From NCBI GenBank assembly GCA_937891825.1, contig CALAHN010000053.1, forward strand, positions 1-35,761: DNA of 35,761 bases. Reading direction: 5' to 3'. Position 1 is the stretch's first letter; every line of letters starts with the position of its first letter. This DNA comes from an uncultured Alphaproteobacteria bacterium. Lineage in GTDB: Bacteria; Pseudomonadota; Alphaproteobacteria; Bin95. This document shows positions 2,207 through 19,115 of the stretch, piece by piece. The position numbers were made by a program, and so were the translations under genes. The notes beneath the pieces are model-generated. The model was not told where the DNA came from and did no database searches. It saw only the letters and a program-made list of their open reading frames with translations.

Positions 2207-4498
2207 TCAGCTCTTCGCGCCGTCGAGCGCAGCGCGCACTCTGGGCGGCGACATCGGCAAATTGTGCATCCGAATGCCGATCGCATCCTCGATCGCGTTC
2301 GCGACCGCCGCCATCGGCGGCACGATCGGCGCTTCGCCGACGCCCTTGGCCCCGAAGGGATGGCGCGGGTTCGGCACTTCGACCAGGATCGTTTCGATCA
2401 TCGGCAGGTCGGACGCGACCGGCACGCGATAATCCAGGAAGCCCGGATTATCGAGACGGCCGTCCTTGTTGTAGATGTATTCTTCGTTCAAGGCCCAGCC
2501 GATGCCCTGCACGGCGCCGCCCTGCAACTGGCCTTCGACATAGGCCGGGTGAATGGCCTTGCCGACGTCCTGAATGGCCGTGTAGCGCAGCACCTTCACG
2601 TGGCCGGTTTCCTCGTCGACTTCAACGTCGCAGAGATGGGTCGCGTAACCCGGCCCGGCGCCCTGGGCGTTGATCGAGGCCTTGCCGGTGATCGGACCGC
2701 CGGTCCGGCCGGACTTCGCCGCGATCGCCGCGAGCGACAGCGGGTCGAACTTGCCCGCGTTCTCGCCGGCCGGATGGGCCATGCCATCCCGCCACTCAAC
2801 CGCAGCCGCGTCGATTTCCCACAACAGCGCCGCGCGCCGGCAAAGGTCGTCCCGGGCCTGCTCGGCCGCCTGGGTCACCGCCATGCCGGTCGCGAACGTG
2901 ACGCGGCTGCCGCCGGTCAGGAACGAATAGCCGACCGAGGCCGTGTCGCCGACGATCGGGCGCACGCGCTCGACGCCGATGCCAAGCACTTCCGCCGCCA
3001 TCATCGCCATGGACGCGCGGCTGCCGCCGATGTCCGGATTGCCGGAGACGACCGTCACCGTGCCGTCTTCGTTGATATAGACGGCGCCCGAGGATTCGCC
3101 GCCGATATTGAACCAGAAGCCCGAAGCGATGCCGCGGCCGCGCTTCGTGCCCTTCGGCGCCGCGCCGAGGTCCGAGGTCCAGTGCGGCGAGGTTTTCGCC
3201 GCTTCCAGGGTCTCGATATAGCCGATGTCCTTCAAGGTCGGACCGTAAGCCGCCTTGGTGCCGTTCTTCGCCGCATTGATCAAACGCAGCTCGACCGGAT
3301 CCATCTTGAGCTTGCGGGCCAGTTCGTCGACGGCGCTTTCGACCGCGAAGGTCGAAATCGGCGCGCCCGGCGCGCGGTATGCCGCGACCTTCGGCCGGTT
3401 CGACACGACATCGAAGCCCCAGATCGACACGTCGGAGAGATCGTACATGGCGAACGGCGTCATGCAGGCCGGGCCGATGGGGGAGCCCGGATAGGCGCCG
3501 GCTTGCAAGGCCACTTCGCATTCGGCGGCGACGATCCGGCCGTTCTTGGTCGCGCCGATCTTCACCTTGATGACGCCGCCCGAGGTCGGGCCCGAGCCGC
3601 GGAACACTTCCTCGCGGCTCATCACCATCTTCACGGGGCGGCCGCTCTTGCGGGACAGCGCCAGCGCCAGCGGTTCAAGATAGACCAGGGTCTTGCCGCC
3701 GAAGCCGCCGCCGATTTCCAGCGGCGTGACGCGAATGTTGGCGATATCGATGCCAAGCAGCTTGGCGCAGAACGCGCGCACCATGAACTGGCCCTGGCTG
3801 GAGCACCAGACCTGGGCCTGACCGTCGGTCCCCATGGCGACGACGCAGGCATGGGGCTCGATATAGGCCTGATGCACCGGCGCCGTGCGATAAACGCCTT
3901 CGACGATCACGTCGGCCTTCGCGAACGCGGCCTTGCTGTCGCCGAGCTTGAACTCGACCCGCTTGGCGATGTTCGACGCCTTGGTCGGCTTCGGATCGAC
4001 GCCCTGGGTGATGAGATCGTCATGCAGGATGGGCGCGCCCGCCTGCATGGCTTCTTCGACATCGATCACATGGGGCAGCACTTCATACTCGACCTCGATG
4101 AGGCGCGCGGCCTCTTCGGCGATCGAGACCGAGGTCGCGGCGACGGCGGCGACGGCATGGCCGTCATACAGCACCTTGTCCCGCGCCATGGTGTTGCGCG
4201 ACAGGTCGCGGAAGTTCACCGGGCCTTCGCCGACGAAAGCTTCCTCGCTCGCGATGTCCGGCAGGTCGGCGGCGGTGATCACCGCCTTCACGCCCGGCAT
4301 CGCTTCGGCCTTCTTGGTGTTGATGGAAAGAATTCGGGCATGGGCGTGCGGGCTGCGCACAACCTTGCCGTGGATCATGCCGGCGACGGCGAAATCCGCC
4401 CCGAACGCGGCGCGGCCGACGACCTTGTCGACGCCATCCGGCCGGATCGGCCGGGTGCCGACAACCTTCAGCGTTACGTCCTTGCCCAAATAATTCAT
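2207..4498 (-). CDS. molybdenum hydroxylase, molybdopterin-binding large subunit (xanthine dehydrogenase family)
   Basis: Catalytic large subunit of a heterotrimeric molybdenum hydroxylase, 763 residues. Family motifs visible: VVRSPHAHARI near residue 46, GGGFGGK at 263-269, the active-site loop AYRAPGAP at 373-380, GGSRVTFATG near 529, and GVGEAP at 719-724, whose Glu722 matches the catalytic base of xanthine oxidase-type enzymes. The loop is not AYRCSFR, so this is not a form I CO dehydrogenase despite the CoxM-S-L gene order. The Ala-Pro-Gly loop resembles xanthine dehydrogenase-like and N-heterocycle or aromatic-CoA hydroxylases. The substrate cannot be named. It is the last gene of the operon, 6 bases after the iron-sulfur subunit, and is followed by a clear terminator. 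Confidence 0.93.
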   Translation of the reverse strand: MNYLGKDVTLKVVGTRPIRPDGVDKVVGRAAFGADFAVAGMIHGKVVRSPHAHARILSINTKKAEAMPGVKAVITAADLPDIASEEAFVGEGPVNFRDLSRNTMARDKVLYDGHAVAAVAATSVSIAEEAARLIEVEYEVLPHVIDVEEAMQAGAPILHDDLITQGVDPKPTKASNIAKRVEFKLGDSKAAFAKADVIVEGVYRTAPVHQAYIEPHACVVAMGTDGQAQVWCSSQGQFMVRAFCAKLLGIDIANIRVTPLEIGGGFGGKTLVYLEPLALALSRKSGRPVKMVMSREEVFRGSGPTSGGVIKVKIGATKNGRIVAAECEVALQAGAYPGSPIGPACMTPFAMYDLSDVSIWGFDVVSNRPKVAAYRAPGAPISTFAVESAVDELARKLKMDPVELRLINAAKNGTKAAYGPTLKDIGYIETLEAAKTSPHWTSDLGAAPKGTKRGRGIASGFWFNIGGESSGAVYINEDGTVTVVSGNPDIGGSRASMAMMAAEVLGIGVERVRPIVGDTASVGYSFLTGGSRVTFATGMAVTQAAEQARDDLCRRAALLWEIDAAAVEWRDGMAHPAGENAGKFDPLSLAAIAAKSGRTGGPITGKASINAQGAGPGYATHLCDVEVDEETGHVKVLRYTAIQDVGKAIHPAYVEGQLQGGAVQGIGWALNEEYIYNKDGRLDNPGFLDYRVPVASDLPMIETILVEVPNPRHPFGAKGVGEAPIVPPMAAVANAIEDAIGIRMHNLPMSPPRVRAALDGAKS

Positions 4499-15412: not shown

Positions 15413-16681
15413 TCAGCGCCGCACCGCCATCCCGTCGGCGAGCGAGCGGCGGTAGGCGAGATACGCGGGCAGCGCGCCCGATGCGCATCCGGCCAGAACC
15501 ACCAGTCCAAGCAAGGCGAGCTCATAGGCGGAAAGCCCGCCGGCGGGCAGATGGAAGCCGAACTGGCTCTGCACGAAGGGCCGGGCAAGCCAGATGCCGC
15601 CATAGAGCATCGCCGCGCCCACAGCGGCCGCCACAGCGGCGAGTCCGCCGGACTCGACCACCAGCAGCAGAAAGATTTCCCGGGGCCGCGCGCCGACGGA
15701 GCGCAGGATCGCCATTTCCCGCCGCCGCTCGTTCAAGGCGCCGAGGCTGACGGCGGTCATGCCCATGAAACCCGTGACCACGACCATGACCGAGATGGCG
15801 AACAGCGCTTTCTCCAACCCGCCGATCGCGTCCCACAATTGCTGCAGGGTCACGCCGGGCAGGATCGCGAGCAGCGCCTCATCGGCATAGGTATTGACGC
15901 GGCGCTGGACGGCGAAGGCCGCCATGCGGGATTTGAGGCCGACCAGCACCGCCGTGACCGCCTTGGGCTGCAGCGCCATCGCGCGCGCCGCTTCGGCCGA
16001 GACCGCTTGACCGGGCCGCGGCGGGCGGCCGGACTGCCAGTCGACATGGATGGCTTCGATCGCCGCCAGGCTGACATGCACCGACCGGTCGACGGGCGTG
16101 CCGGTGCGGGCGAGGACGCCGAAAACCGTGAACGGCTTGTCGTCATGGGACTGGACCGCGAATGCGCCGGCGCCGTGGGCCAGCACGATGCGGTCGCCGA
16201 CGACATAGCCCAGTTCGCGCGCGACATCGGCGCCGATGACCGCGTCGAAAAGATCCGCGAACGGCTGGCCGGCATCGAACGACAAGGCCTGCCGGCGTCC
16301 GTAGCGAAGATGCTCGAAATAGCCCGCGGTCGTGCCGACGACCCGGAAGCCGCGATGGGCGTCGCCAAGCGATATCGGCACGCTCCAGGCGACTTCCGGC
16401 CAGGCGCGAAGCTCTTCGTAGCTCTGCCAGGAGATGTTGTTGCTGGCGTCCCCGATGCGGAAGACCGAATACAGCAGAAGCTGGATCGCGCCGCCGCGAG
16501 CGCCGACGATCAAATCCGTGCCGGAGACCGTGTTCGCGAAGCTGTCCCGGGCGCCGGAGCGGACTTTCTCGACGCCCAGCAACAACGTGACGCTAAGCGC
16601 GATGGCGGCGATGGTCAGGATCGCGGTCGCCTTGCGATTGATCAGGCTCTTGAGCGCCAGGCTGAGCAATGGGGCGTTCAT
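15413..16681 (-). CDS. ABC transporter permease, MacB/FtsX (mechanotransmission) type
   Basis: 422 residues with the four-helix topology of MacB/FtsX/LolCE proteins: one N-terminal membrane segment (about 18-38), a large periplasmic domain (about 40-285), then three membrane segments around 290-312, 338-365 and 383-407. The ALNERRREMAILRSVGARPREIF coupling-helix region is the FtsX-family signature. It overlaps the ATPase gene by four bases (ATGA) and is last in the DUF3299/DUF2796 cassette. Proteins of this type use ATP hydrolysis to move periplasmic parts or extrude lipoproteins and peptides rather than to carry ions through a channel. This matters for interpreting the cassette's role. Confidence 0.9.
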   Translation of the reverse strand: MNAPLLSLALKSLINRKATAILTIAAIALSVTLLLGVEKVRSGARDSFANTVSGTDLIVGARGGAIQLLLYSVFRIGDASNNISWQSYEELRAWPEVAWSVPISLGDAHRGFRVVGTTAGYFEHLRYGRRQALSFDAGQPFADLFDAVIGADVARELGYVVGDRIVLAHGAGAFAVQSHDDKPFTVFGVLARTGTPVDRSVHVSLAAIEAIHVDWQSGRPPRPGQAVSAEAARAMALQPKAVTAVLVGLKSRMAAFAVQRRVNTYADEALLAILPGVTLQQLWDAIGGLEKALFAISVMVVVTGFMGMTAVSLGALNERRREMAILRSVGARPREIFLLLVVESGGLAAVAAAVGAAMLYGGIWLARPFVQSQFGFHLPAGGLSAYELALLGLVVLAGCASGALPAYLAYRRSLADGMAVRR

Positions 16682-17400
16682 CGCTTGGCCTCGCCGGGCC
16701 GATTGATGTCCGACAGGACGATCGTGCGGTCGAAGGCGGGCGCCAGGGAGCGATCGTGCGACACGAAAAGCAGCGTGGCGCCGGCCGCCGCCGTTTCCGC
16801 ATTCAGAAGGGCCAGGAAGGCGTCGCGGGCGTCCGCATCGAGCGCGGAAGTCGGCTCGTCGCAGATCACCAGGTCCGGCCGGCCGATCAAGGCGCGGGCG
16901 ACGGCGACGCGCTGTTGCTGGCCGGTGCTGAGGCGAGCGACGTCGCGGCCGGCCAGCGCCTTGACGTCGAGGCCCAGCCGCGCCAGGAGACGCGCCGCCT
17001 CGGTCGCGGGATCGCTCCCGGCGGCCGCGATCCGCTCCCGGCGGCGCGGCGAGAACCGGCAGGCCAGCAACACATTGTCGAGCAGCGAGAGATAGGGCAC
17101 GAGGTTGAAGGACTGGAACACGAAGCCGATGCGATCGCTGCGGAACCGGTCGCGCCGCGCATTCGGCATGGCAGCGAGATCGGCCCCCAGAACGCAGAGC
17201 CGTCCGGCCGTGGGCTTCAGGACCCCGGCGAGCAGGTTCAGCAAGGTCGTCTTGCCGCCGCCGCTCTGCCCCGCGATGAAGACGGCCTCGCCGCGCCTGA
17301 TCTCAAGGCTATCGATGGCGATGACGTCGGGCTCGCCCTCGCGCCATCGGAACCTCAAACCTTCGGCCTGGATGACCGCCGACTGGCATTCAGGCTCCAT
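16678..17400 (-). CDS. ABC transporter ATP-binding protein (LolD/MacB-like)
   Basis: 240-residue cytoplasmic ATPase pairing with the adjacent permease. Walker A GQSGGGKT at 44-51, Q-loop FVFQSFNLVPYLSLLDNV, signature LSTGQQQRVAVARAL, Walker B LVICDEPTSALD and the switch His in FVSHD are all present. The signature reads LSTGQ instead of the usual LSGGQ, a mild variation. The sequence places it in the LolD/MacB ATPase group, consistent with the MacB-type partner. It lies 48 bases after the DUF2796 gene and overlaps the permease start. Confidence 0.93.
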   Translation of the reverse strand: MEPECQSAVIQAEGLRFRWREGEPDVIAIDSLEIRRGEAVFIAGQSGGGKTTLLNLLAGVLKPTAGRLCVLGADLAAMPNARRDRFRSDRIGFVFQSFNLVPYLSLLDNVLLACRFSPRRRERIAAAGSDPATEAARLLARLGLDVKALAGRDVARLSTGQQQRVAVARALIGRPDLVICDEPTSALDADARDAFLALLNAETAAAGATLLFVSHDRSLAPAFDRTIVLSDINRPGEAKR

Positions 17401-17448
17401 TCGGATGCTCGTCCCGCGCCATGCTCGATCCTACTTCGGCGGGTCGAT

Positions 17449-17994
17449 CTAGAATTGGAGCTGCGGCGACTGCGGCGTCAGTTCCTGCGCCGTCTGGCCG
17501 GACGGGCCGATGACGGCTGCGTCGATCTCCGCAATTCCGGGGAAATGCTCGAAATAGCGCACGCGGATCGTCTGCAAAGCTTCGGGCTTGGCGCAGGTCC
17601 AGCCATAATGCGCGTGGAAAGCGGTATGGTCGGCGGCGTCAGCCTTCTGCCCATGGGCGTCGGCGAGCGCTTCCTGCTCGGCTTCGGCTTCGGTCAGGGC
17701 GCAGCCGGCGGCTTCCGGCAGGTCGAACATCGCGCCGGCATCGCCCAGGCGGCGAAGGGCGGCGGCGATCTTCGCCTTCTGCGCATCGTCCCCTGGCGCA
17801 TGCTCGAAGCCGACGATGTCCATGCCCGGCGCTTCGACAGCGATCTCCAGTTGGCCGCCATCCAGGGCCGCCTGCAAGGTCGCATGGCCGTGCCGATGCG
17901 CCCCGTGCTCCCGCCGTTCCGTCGCGGCTGCCGGTCCCGACGCAGCGGCCGCCGTCGTCATCGCTATCAGCGTCATGCCAACCAGAATCCGCAT
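17449..17994 (-). CDS. DUF2796/ZrgA-like histidine-rich periplasmic zinc-binding protein
   Basis: 181 residues with an N-terminal signal peptide. The mature protein has an early His cluster (EHGAHRHGHA) and a second one in the middle (ADAHGQKADAADHTAFHAHYGW). The core ATLQAALDGGQLEIAVEAPGMDIVGFEHAP segment and the late IRVRYFEHFPGIAEIDA stretch match DUF2796. Members of this family (ZrgA of Vibrio cholerae, and a Pseudomonas homologue) are reported as zinc-repressed, zinc-binding proteins. The start at 17994 lies 4 bases after the DUF3299 stop, so they are co-transcribed. The exact role, chaperone or capture protein for the ABC system, is not established here. Confidence 0.87.
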   Translation of the reverse strand: MRILVGMTLIAMTTAAAASGPAAATERREHGAHRHGHATLQAALDGGQLEIAVEAPGMDIVGFEHAPGDDAQKAKIAAALRRLGDAGAMFDLPEAAGCALTEAEAEQEALADAHGQKADAADHTAFHAHYGWTCAKPEALQTIRVRYFEHFPGIAEIDAAVIGPSGQTAQELTPQSPQLQF

Positions 17995-17998
17995 GCCG

Positions 17999-18697
17999 TC
18001 ACTCCTTGTAGGGTTCGGTAACTGTGACATCGAGCCGGTAGCCGGTCGCAACCGGCGACTGGCCGTCGACGAGGGAAAGATTGACCGTCGCATCCACGGC
18101 CGAAAGCCGGCCCGTGATATAGACCGGCGTGAACACCCCCTGGCTTTCGAAGCCGGGCGCATAATGGGCGTGCGCCATCTGGTTCGGCGGCGGCGGCGGC
18201 GTATGGATGCAGGCGCCGACGAACGGCACCAGCAGAAACTCGGTCACCTTGGCGCCGTCGAATTCCAGCGGCAGCACATAGCCCGGCATGCGGATCATCT
18301 TGCCGTCAAGCTCGGGATTGGTCTGCTTGTCGAGGATCGCGACTTCGCCCGCCATGCGGTCGACCCGGTCGGCGATCGCCGCGGCCTCGGGGAACGTCGT
18401 CCGATAGTCGGTCTCCAGGAGCGCCAGATCGTCCGCCGACAGGAATTCGCGGCGGAGCTCGCCGGACGCGAGCTGCCGCTTCAGCGCATTCTGATCGCTG
18501 AGCATCCGAAAGGCGTCCTGGGAGCCTTCCGGCAATGCATCCAGGCGCGCCTGCAGGCCTTCAGCTTCGGTTTCGAGGAGGCCATAGGCGGCGGGCAGCA
18601 GATCGTCCCAGCCGATCGACGCAACCTTCGCCGCCGCTGAATGCGGCGCGAAGCTCAGCGCCGCGAGCAGAACCAAAGCGAACCGGCCGAGGCGCAT
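17999..18697 (-). CDS. DUF3299 secreted protein, first gene of a zinc-responsive cassette
   Basis: 232 residues with a Sec signal peptide (basic start, hydrophobic core, SAAA cleavage zone). The DUF3299 signature is LVPFVGACIHTPPPPPNQ, preceded by IRMPGYVLPLEFDG and followed by GVFTPVYITGRL. An alpha-helical N-terminal region (about residues 40-130) lacks a name. It is first in the operon behind a Zur-like operator 39 bases upstream, with GGGAG before the ATG. DUF3299 genes are commonly neighbours of zinc-regulated ABC genes. Biochemical function is unknown; the conserved Cys-Ile-His suggests metal binding, but this is inference. Confidence 0.85.
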   Translation of the reverse strand: MRLGRFALVLLAALSFAPHSAAAKVASIGWDDLLPAAYGLLETEAEGLQARLDALPEGSQDAFRMLSDQNALKRQLASGELRREFLSADDLALLETDYRTTFPEAAAIADRVDRMAGEVAILDKQTNPELDGKMIRMPGYVLPLEFDGAKVTEFLLVPFVGACIHTPPPPPNQMAHAHYAPGFESQGVFTPVYITGRLSAVDATVNLSLVDGQSPVATGYRLDVTVTEPYKE

Positions 18698-18735: not shown

Positions 18736-18750
18736 TGTTATAGAGTAACA
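18736..18750 (-). promoter_or_regulatory. Zur-like operator overlapping the promoter of the DUF3299 operon
   Basis: TGTTA (18736-18740) and TAACA (18746-18750) form a perfect inverted repeat with a 5-base spacer. The wider sequence, ATATGTTATAGAGTAACACTT, closely resembles proteobacterial Zur boxes built on TGTTATAnnATAACA. On the minus strand it sits 39-53 bases before the ATG and overlaps the likely -10 region (TATAAC or ATATAA). Bound Zur-zinc would block transcription. The match plus the zinc-linked gene content make it credible, but the zur gene itself is not in the window. Confidence 0.7.
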
Positions 18751-18801: not shown

Positions 18802-19038
18802 TCAGGCAAGCGGCTTCAGCACGCGATCCTTGGATGCCGGGAACTTCGCCAGCTTGGCCGCCGGCCGGATCGGCCGCGCGACCAGGTTGCCGCCGCAATT
18901 CGGGCAGAGGCCGCCCGGCAAACGGCTGCCGGCGCAGTCCCGGCAAAACGTGCATTCGAAACTGCAGATCACGGCGTCCGCGGCGTCGGGCGGCAGGTCC
19001 TTGTCGCAGCATTCGCAGTTCGGCTTGAGAATCAGCAT
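18802..19038 (-). CDS. DUF1272 cysteine-rich zinc-ribbon-like protein
   Basis: 78-residue cytoplasmic protein with many cysteines: CECCDKDLPPDAADAVICSFECTFCRDC and then GLCPNCGGNLV. This is the DUF1272 pattern, probably binding two zinc ions. It begins at 19038 (LILKPNCECC) and ends in a basic, proline-containing tail. It lies upstream of the zinc cassette on the same strand, 104 bases away. The Zur-like operator lies between them, so it is a separate unit. Biological role unknown. Confidence 0.85.
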   Translation of the reverse strand: MLILKPNCECCDKDLPPDAADAVICSFECTFCRDCAGSRLPGGLCPNCGGNLVARPIRPAAKLAKFPASKDRVLKPLA

Positions 19039-19115
19039 GTGTGTCGCTCCTATCCTGGCTTGATCGATCGGGCGGGCGCAGTCAGGATGCGGCCCCGCAT
19101 ACTGGGGAGCATCCT

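Follow-up and report, generated by a model that had tools for sequence, protein, structure and literature searches.

A Zur-boxed Zrg operon of an uncultured alphaproteobacterium as a candidate zinc-transfer machine of the periplasm

In a contig of 35,761 nucleotides from an uncultured alphaproteobacterium (GenBank assembly GCA_937891825.1, CALAHN010000053.1, positions 1 to 35,761; hereafter the window), we analysed a cassette of four co-directional genes on the minus strand, at positions 15413-18697. The cassette encodes a DUF3299 protein, the exported protein ZrgA, and the ATPase and permease of an ATP-binding cassette (ABC) complex of Type VII, and it is best explained as a Zur-repressed Zrg system. 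The reading that we tentatively favour for its function is an ATP-driven machine of the mechanotransmission type that would transfer zinc between periplasmic proteins. All the evidence is comparative. The genes and sites on which the analysis rests are the following:

18736..18750, Zur-type palindrome TGTTATAGAGTAACA (minus strand TGTTACTCTATAACA), 38 nt before the ATG of the first gene
17999..18697, minus strand, DUF3299 protein (ZrgE/PA4066 family; PF11736, E 4e-32, Pfam)
18203..18211, minus strand, codons of the invariant C163-x-H165 motif of the DUF3299 protein
17449..17994, minus strand, ZrgA (DUF2796), exported, His-rich (PF10986, E 4e-51, Pfam)
16678..17400, minus strand, ABC ATPase resembling LolD and the nucleotide-binding domain of MacB (ZrgC/PA4064; PF00005)
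15413..16681, minus strand, Type VII (MacB/LolE-like) ABC permease (ZrgB/PA4065; MacB_PCD and FtsX, Pfam)
16046..16363, minus strand, segment encoding the periplasmic residues D107, H109, H169, H179, D198 and H212 of the permease (putative metal site)

An earlier note on this DNA, made from the letters alone, had described four co-directional genes with short gaps or overlaps behind a Zur-like box, and both the coordinates and the Pfam matches confirm this arrangement. The DUF3299 and ZrgA genes are 4 nt apart, 48 nt separate ZrgA from the ATPase, and the ATPase and permease genes overlap by 4 nt (ATGA). Generic ATPase models aside, the cassette proteins matched only the ZrgA, FtsX/MacB_PCD, ABC_tran and DUF3299 families in Pfam. 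With ZrgA (PF10986), an adjoining ABC ATPase and MacB/FtsX-type permease, and DUF3299 in one operon, the cassette is a further member of the already described Zrg kind. The note's relation to the zrg genes therefore stands, as Vibrio ZrgABCDE and PA4063-PA4066 of Pseudomonas aeruginosa are of the same kind; for that same reason its word "distinct" was too strong for the cassette. With ZrgABCDE of V. cholerae and V. parahaemolyticus the cassette has in common ZrgA, the ATPase, the permease, DUF3299, the predicted Zur control and the residues of ZrgA zinc site 1. It differs in its alphaproteobacterial host, in having DUF3299 first and not last, with an extra helical N-terminal region, and in ZrgD, for which no gene (DUF2607) was found in the cassette; ZrgD is likewise missing in V. 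fischeri and in the four-gene PA4063-4066 operon, and is therefore not defining. The four families of PA4063-PA4066 are the same as those of the cassette, whereas the gene order differs, and pyochelin, which has been proposed as the substrate there and is made by a nonribosomal peptide synthetase (NRPS), cannot be made here, as the genome contains no NRPS condensation domain.

The link to Zur, which the earlier note had read from the box in front of the genes, is supported by searches of the whole genome and by the conserved neighbours of related operons. Only two exact matches to the pattern GTTATANNRTAAC were found in the 4.3 Mb genome, the cassette box and another that precedes znuA by 36 nt, and a copy with one mismatch lies directly before the zur-znuC-znuB operon, so that the best Zur-type boxes of the genome precede znuA, zur-znuC-znuB and the cassette. 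An alternative pattern with the wrong spacing, TGTTATNNNNNTAACA, gave background matches only. Zur control is thus predicted from sequence alone, by a box held in common with znuA and zur-znuCB. In our partial sample of genomes, where sequences within one genus are not independent and some of the phylum-level loci are rich in Pseudomonas, 31 of 61 ZrgA operons have a Zur-like palindrome (at least 12 of 15 matches) in front of them, compared with 2.5% of control windows taken at random from the same DNA. Among 55 loci from many lineages, the recurrent neighbours within 5 kb were a Fur-family regulator (12 loci, the match lying just below the cut-off), a COG0523/CobW GTPase (9) and MerC (7), followed by a ZIP-type transporter (4), DUF1826 (4), ZnuB (3) and HisI (3); the Fur-family, COG0523, MerC and DUF1826 neighbours were confirmed with Pfam, and the ZIP, ZnuB and HisI neighbours were read by eye. 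A Pseudooceanicola plasmid carries an annotated set of znuA, two GTPases, DUF1826, DUF2796, the ATPase, the permease and two DUF3299 genes.

The gene combination occurs far beyond chance, because 22 of the 25 alphaproteobacterial ZrgA loci above the cut-off (385 genomes searched) have the ATPase, the permease and DUF3299 near ZrgA; two of the three exceptions lie at contig ends and the third is a ZrgA-DUF3299 pair. Surveys in which these families neither co-occurred nor lay near Zur sites had been named as what would speak against the system; both points were examined, and the families were found together and near such sites. The order ZrgA-ATPase-permease-DUF3299 is present in 71 of 80 further loci, which were fetched by their permease, and the order with DUF3299 first is a minority form common to the window and to loci L089, L091, L096, L213 and L225. 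ZrgA was absent from one genome of the same genus and from three of the same family, hence the distribution is patchy.

The exported proteins of the cassette have well-defined relatives. ZrgA scored 173.6 bits with PF10986 (cut-off 27.4; the Pfam family is now named "ZrgA family zinc uptake protein") and 149.6 with the NCBIfam ZrgA equivalog, below its cut-off of 185, and is therefore a divergent ZrgA. Its residues H33, H35 and E64, conserved at 100, 100 and 98%, are spaced as zinc site 1 of V. cholerae ZrgA (H35/H37/E66; PMC9820375), and C98 and C134 correspond to the disulphide cysteines of PA4063 (PMC8561739), which is also its closest solved structure (7ahw, E 1e-25). In the solved structures, PA4063 and V. 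cholerae ZrgA adopt a ferredoxin-like fold, and their zinc sites lie exposed (PMC8561739, PMC9820375). The DUF3299 protein is an exported oligonucleotide/oligosaccharide-binding (OB) fold protein with the invariant motifs C163-x-H165 and PPPP-x-NQ, and its extra helical N-terminal region of ~95 residues (about 30-125) is missing from the common form. Its closest solved structure is PA4066 (4hsp, E 3e-18; fold match Z 14.9); the other fold matches were generic OB folds with Z of 9-10, from MCM helicases to RPA, which we took as no guide to function. In about 15 of 54 sampled loci DUF3299 is solitary, thus the family is not exclusive to the Zrg system. Such stand-alone genes, far from any ABC pair, were seen in L115, L133, L149, L150 and about 11 others, the one in L149 lying beside purE/purK-like genes.

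The permease bears on the mechanism. Its AlphaFold2 model, with a mean predicted local distance difference test score (pLDDT) of 83, aligns along almost its whole length with Type VII permeases: 5xu1 with Z 24.9, LolE with Z about 22, MacB with Z 19.6 and HrtB with Z 19.3 (324-375 residues). The features of Type VII are all present in the model, namely the four-helix permease, the MacB-type periplasmic domain and the FtsX-type C-terminal helices. Characterised members of this type, such as LolE, MacB and FtsX, act on the periplasmic side by mechanotransmission and not by passing a substrate through the bilayer. In an alignment with 142 relatives, D107, H169, H179, D198 and H212 are invariant in 142 of 142 and H109 is kept in 137; all six residues are located in the periplasmic domain, and the same alignment contains no conserved His, Cys or Asp in transmembrane helices 2-4. 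The three histidines are absent from the outgroups used, which were E. coli LolC, LolE and MacB and the LolC/E of the same genome (E. coli FtsX and YbbP were left out). We regard the Asp/His set as a putative metal site whose residues may bind zinc. The literature searched yielded no description of the set, which is not proof that none exists, and the word histidine does not occur in the mBio paper. In the permease tree, the protein falls into one clade with the permeases of other ZrgA operons, including that of Pseudomonas.

The same residues are found in a second kind of operon, which is built around a zinc enzyme. Distant homologues (26-32% identity) were found by a plasmid protein search in Deinococcus, Thermus, Paracoccus, Ensifer and Roseomonas, and by a second search in Shinella, and in 8 of 8 plasmid loci the genes were ordered alkaline phosphatase, small exported protein, ATPase, permease. 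In a further test, neither permease nor phosphatase served as bait: only a profile of the small exported protein, which carries a CPFC motif in place of the C-x-H of DUF3299, was run against 398 Pseudomonadota genomes, and 10 of 10 strong matches sit in the same four-gene phosphatase operon. Together, these sister operons are:

L282-L285, L287-L289, L291 and L306-L315, PhoA-CPFC-ATPase-permease operons of Deinococcota, Alphaproteobacteria and other Pseudomonadota

The sister phosphatases that were scanned belong to PF00245, and the zinc ligands of E. coli PhoA (D51, D327, H331, D369, H370 and H412) are kept in 18 of 18. The 18 sister permeases are monophyletic (support 0.989), fall together with the Zrg clade to the exclusion of Lol and MacB (0.98), and retain D107, H169, H179, D198 and H212. 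The sister operons thus have in common with the cassette the five permease residues, an ABC ATPase and a small exported DUF3299-like protein, whereas they lack ZrgA and have a PhoA-family zinc phosphatase instead. The CPFC protein has no Pfam family; a profile comparison with DUF3299 (hhalign) gave E 3e-6 and probability 88, and two proteins of genome G700 are matched by both models, by PF11736 at E 3e-9 and 2e-6 and by that of the CPFC protein at E about 1e-6. By these profile matches, the CPFC protein is distantly related to DUF3299. Pho-box-like sites (at least 11 of 14) precede 5 of 18 sister operons compared with 1% of controls; as some of them lie downstream of the assumed start, they are suggestive only. 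In L315 (reverse complement 3970-3986) an exact Zur-type palindrome, GTTATACCATAAC, lies about 80 nt upstream of the likely phosphatase start. No description of the phosphatase-linked operons was found in the literature searched.

Some further observations concern these loci and their relatives. A gene resembling PCu(A)C-type copper chaperones stands beside divergent phosphatase operons, downstream in L315 (by eye) and upstream in L285 (annotated). L128 (7295-8238) and L126 (7642-8154) encode intermediate DUF3299-like proteins, with the motifs CPFC/CFFC-PPGxPNE and CPFH-MPGG; their genes adjoin an ATPase and a permease, with neither ZrgA nor phosphatase nearby.

The Zrg system, linked to zinc starvation by Zur and a zinc-binding protein, and the sister system, linked to a dedicated two-zinc enzyme, share the Asp/His set and a small exported cysteine-bearing partner, and what would most simply unite them is periplasmic zinc. 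Together with the mechanotransmission fold, this makes ATP-driven zinc transfer from one periplasmic protein to another the likeliest reading, although we hold it with less than even confidence. The Type VII complex of ATPase and four-helix permease would handle zinc from the periplasmic side and pass none through the inner membrane. ZrgA, as an exported carrier, would bring zinc, and the Asp/His site of the permease, in its periplasmic domain, would accept or donate the ion, with DUF3299, through its OB fold and C-x-H motif, as a possible partner for docking or ligand exchange. Closing and opening of the periplasmic domains, driven by the binding and hydrolysis of ATP, would force release of zinc or its hand-over to a client, which might be an apo-enzyme or ZnuA. 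In its Zrg form the machine would mobilise or deliver zinc under zinc starvation. The direction of transfer and the roles of DUF3299 and ATP are what we infer, and the data fit metal insertion as well as extraction. A broader proposal, which we consider conceivable and would not yet bet on, is that both clades form an unrecognised Type VII branch that transfers metal, and not lipids, peptides or force alone, with an Asp/His metal site common to its permeases and a partner of the DUF3299 type: the Zrg clade with ZrgA would serve the low-zinc response, the other clade would load or salvage the zinc of its dedicated PhoA-family alkaline phosphatase, and the two would be the first machines of periplasmic metallation to be driven by ATP.

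Several points weigh against periplasmic zinc transfer. D198 may be structural, as the LolC/E of the same genome have an Asp at the aligned position. PA4066 has no evident zinc-binding ability (PMC11481552), and V. cholerae was unaffected by the deletion of zrgE alone (PMC9820375), which makes an essential role of DUF3299 less likely. The co-occurrence with PhoA could result from substrate presentation rather than metal loading. Finally, the growth defects of Vibrio zrg mutants under zinc starvation are equally expected of an importer.

The function of Zrg systems is indeed disputed, and where the earlier note had called the substrate unsettled, published claims in fact conflict, between a zinc importer and a pyochelin-cobalt exporter. 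Vibrio zrgABCDE is repressed by Zur and strongly induced by zinc limitation (PMC9817125, PMC9820375), and ZrgA is a zinc-binding protein that V. cholerae cells lacking znuA require for growth (PMC9820375, PMC9817125). The Vibrio papers favour a zinc importer, in which ZrgA serves as a non-canonical substrate-binding protein for an ABC pair that moves zinc into the cytoplasm, and the zinc-site-1 residues conserved in the present ZrgA suit this view, as do the growth phenotypes, which fit import as well as periplasmic transfer. We nevertheless think import unlikely, since the four-helix Type VII fold belongs to proteins acting from the periplasmic side, helices 2-4 offer no conserved His, Cys or Asp, and the sister operons have a phosphatase and no ZrgA. 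After deletion of PA4065, P. aeruginosa had a higher demand for zinc, yet its cell zinc did not change to a relevant degree (PMC11481552), which speaks for periplasmic transfer and against import; no transport assay for or against import was found in the literature. The earlier note's suspicion that the system is probably not a classical importer, but may handle zinc in the periplasm or remodel envelope proteins mechanically, is therefore strengthened on its first point by the Type VII fold, the putative periplasmic metal site and the PhoA-family operons. Neither is the cassette of the ZnuABC type: its box is the same Zur-type box that the genome uses for znuA and zur-znuCB, which are located elsewhere, whereas its permease and binding protein are unrelated, with no cluster A-I binding protein (PF01297) or ABC-3 permease among the cassette matches.

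Somewhat less probable still is a complex that acts mechanically, as a regulator or extractor in the manner of FtsEX-EnvC or YbbAP-TesA, and would remodel or activate an envelope enzyme, or present a membrane substrate, without metal transfer, the Asp/His set being a structural or regulatory zinc site. By its modelled permease fold, its ATPase family and the mechanotransmission to be expected from them, the cassette does resemble LolCDE, MacAB-TolC, FtsEX and YbbAP-TesA, the last of which is a precedent for a hydrolase partner of a Type VII system (PMC12646458), and the PhoA-family hydrolase and the Pho-box-like sites of the sister operons would agree with such a role. It differs from all of them in its periplasmic Asp/His set and in its exported zinc-binding and DUF3299 partners; Zrg operons, moreover, have no hydrolase partner, their conserved partner ZrgA is a zinc-binding protein, and they are under Zur control.

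A MacB-type exporter of a metallophore or its metal complex, as a 2024 study argued for PA4064-PA4065 with pyochelin-cobalt, is improbable here: pyochelin and cobalt do build up in PA4065 mutants of a zinc-uptake-deficient strain (PMC11481552) and the permease fold does resemble MacB and the heme exporter HrtB, but the Asp/His set is unlike MacB, the ATPase and permease are separate chains, which in MacB they are not, the cassette has no MacA-type adaptor (adaptor-family proteins are encoded elsewhere in the genome), and 30 of 42 zrg genomes tested, the present one included, have no NRPS condensation domain, so that pyochelin cannot be the general substrate, with NRPS-independent metallophores (opine types, for example) outside this search.

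Two observations concern the surroundings. Directly upstream of the Zur box, at 18804-19040 on the same strand, lies a gene for a small Cys-rich, zinc-ribbon-like protein (DUF1272-like, read by eye), with no evidence that it belongs to the cassette. In G000, CGGTGAATCACAACCTGCTGATATCGCTCAAACACTTTTCGGTCAGGCTCT occurs at about base 18 from many contig ends (for example C12:20, C17:18 and C43:21; loci L067-L087); the repeated element is probably an insertion sequence terminus that breaks the assembly, and a transposase-like frame adjoins it in L187.

Zrg-type operons are widespread in Proteobacteria, pathogens included, and the conflict between the published claims about their function is made testable, together with the mechanism, by the invariant permease residues and by a sister operon whose zinc enzyme, alkaline phosphatase, can be measured. 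The periplasm has no free ATP, and metallation there is usually attributed to passive binding and chaperones. If zinc transfer of the kind proposed here is true, bacteria would have ATP-powered zinc-transfer machines in the periplasm.

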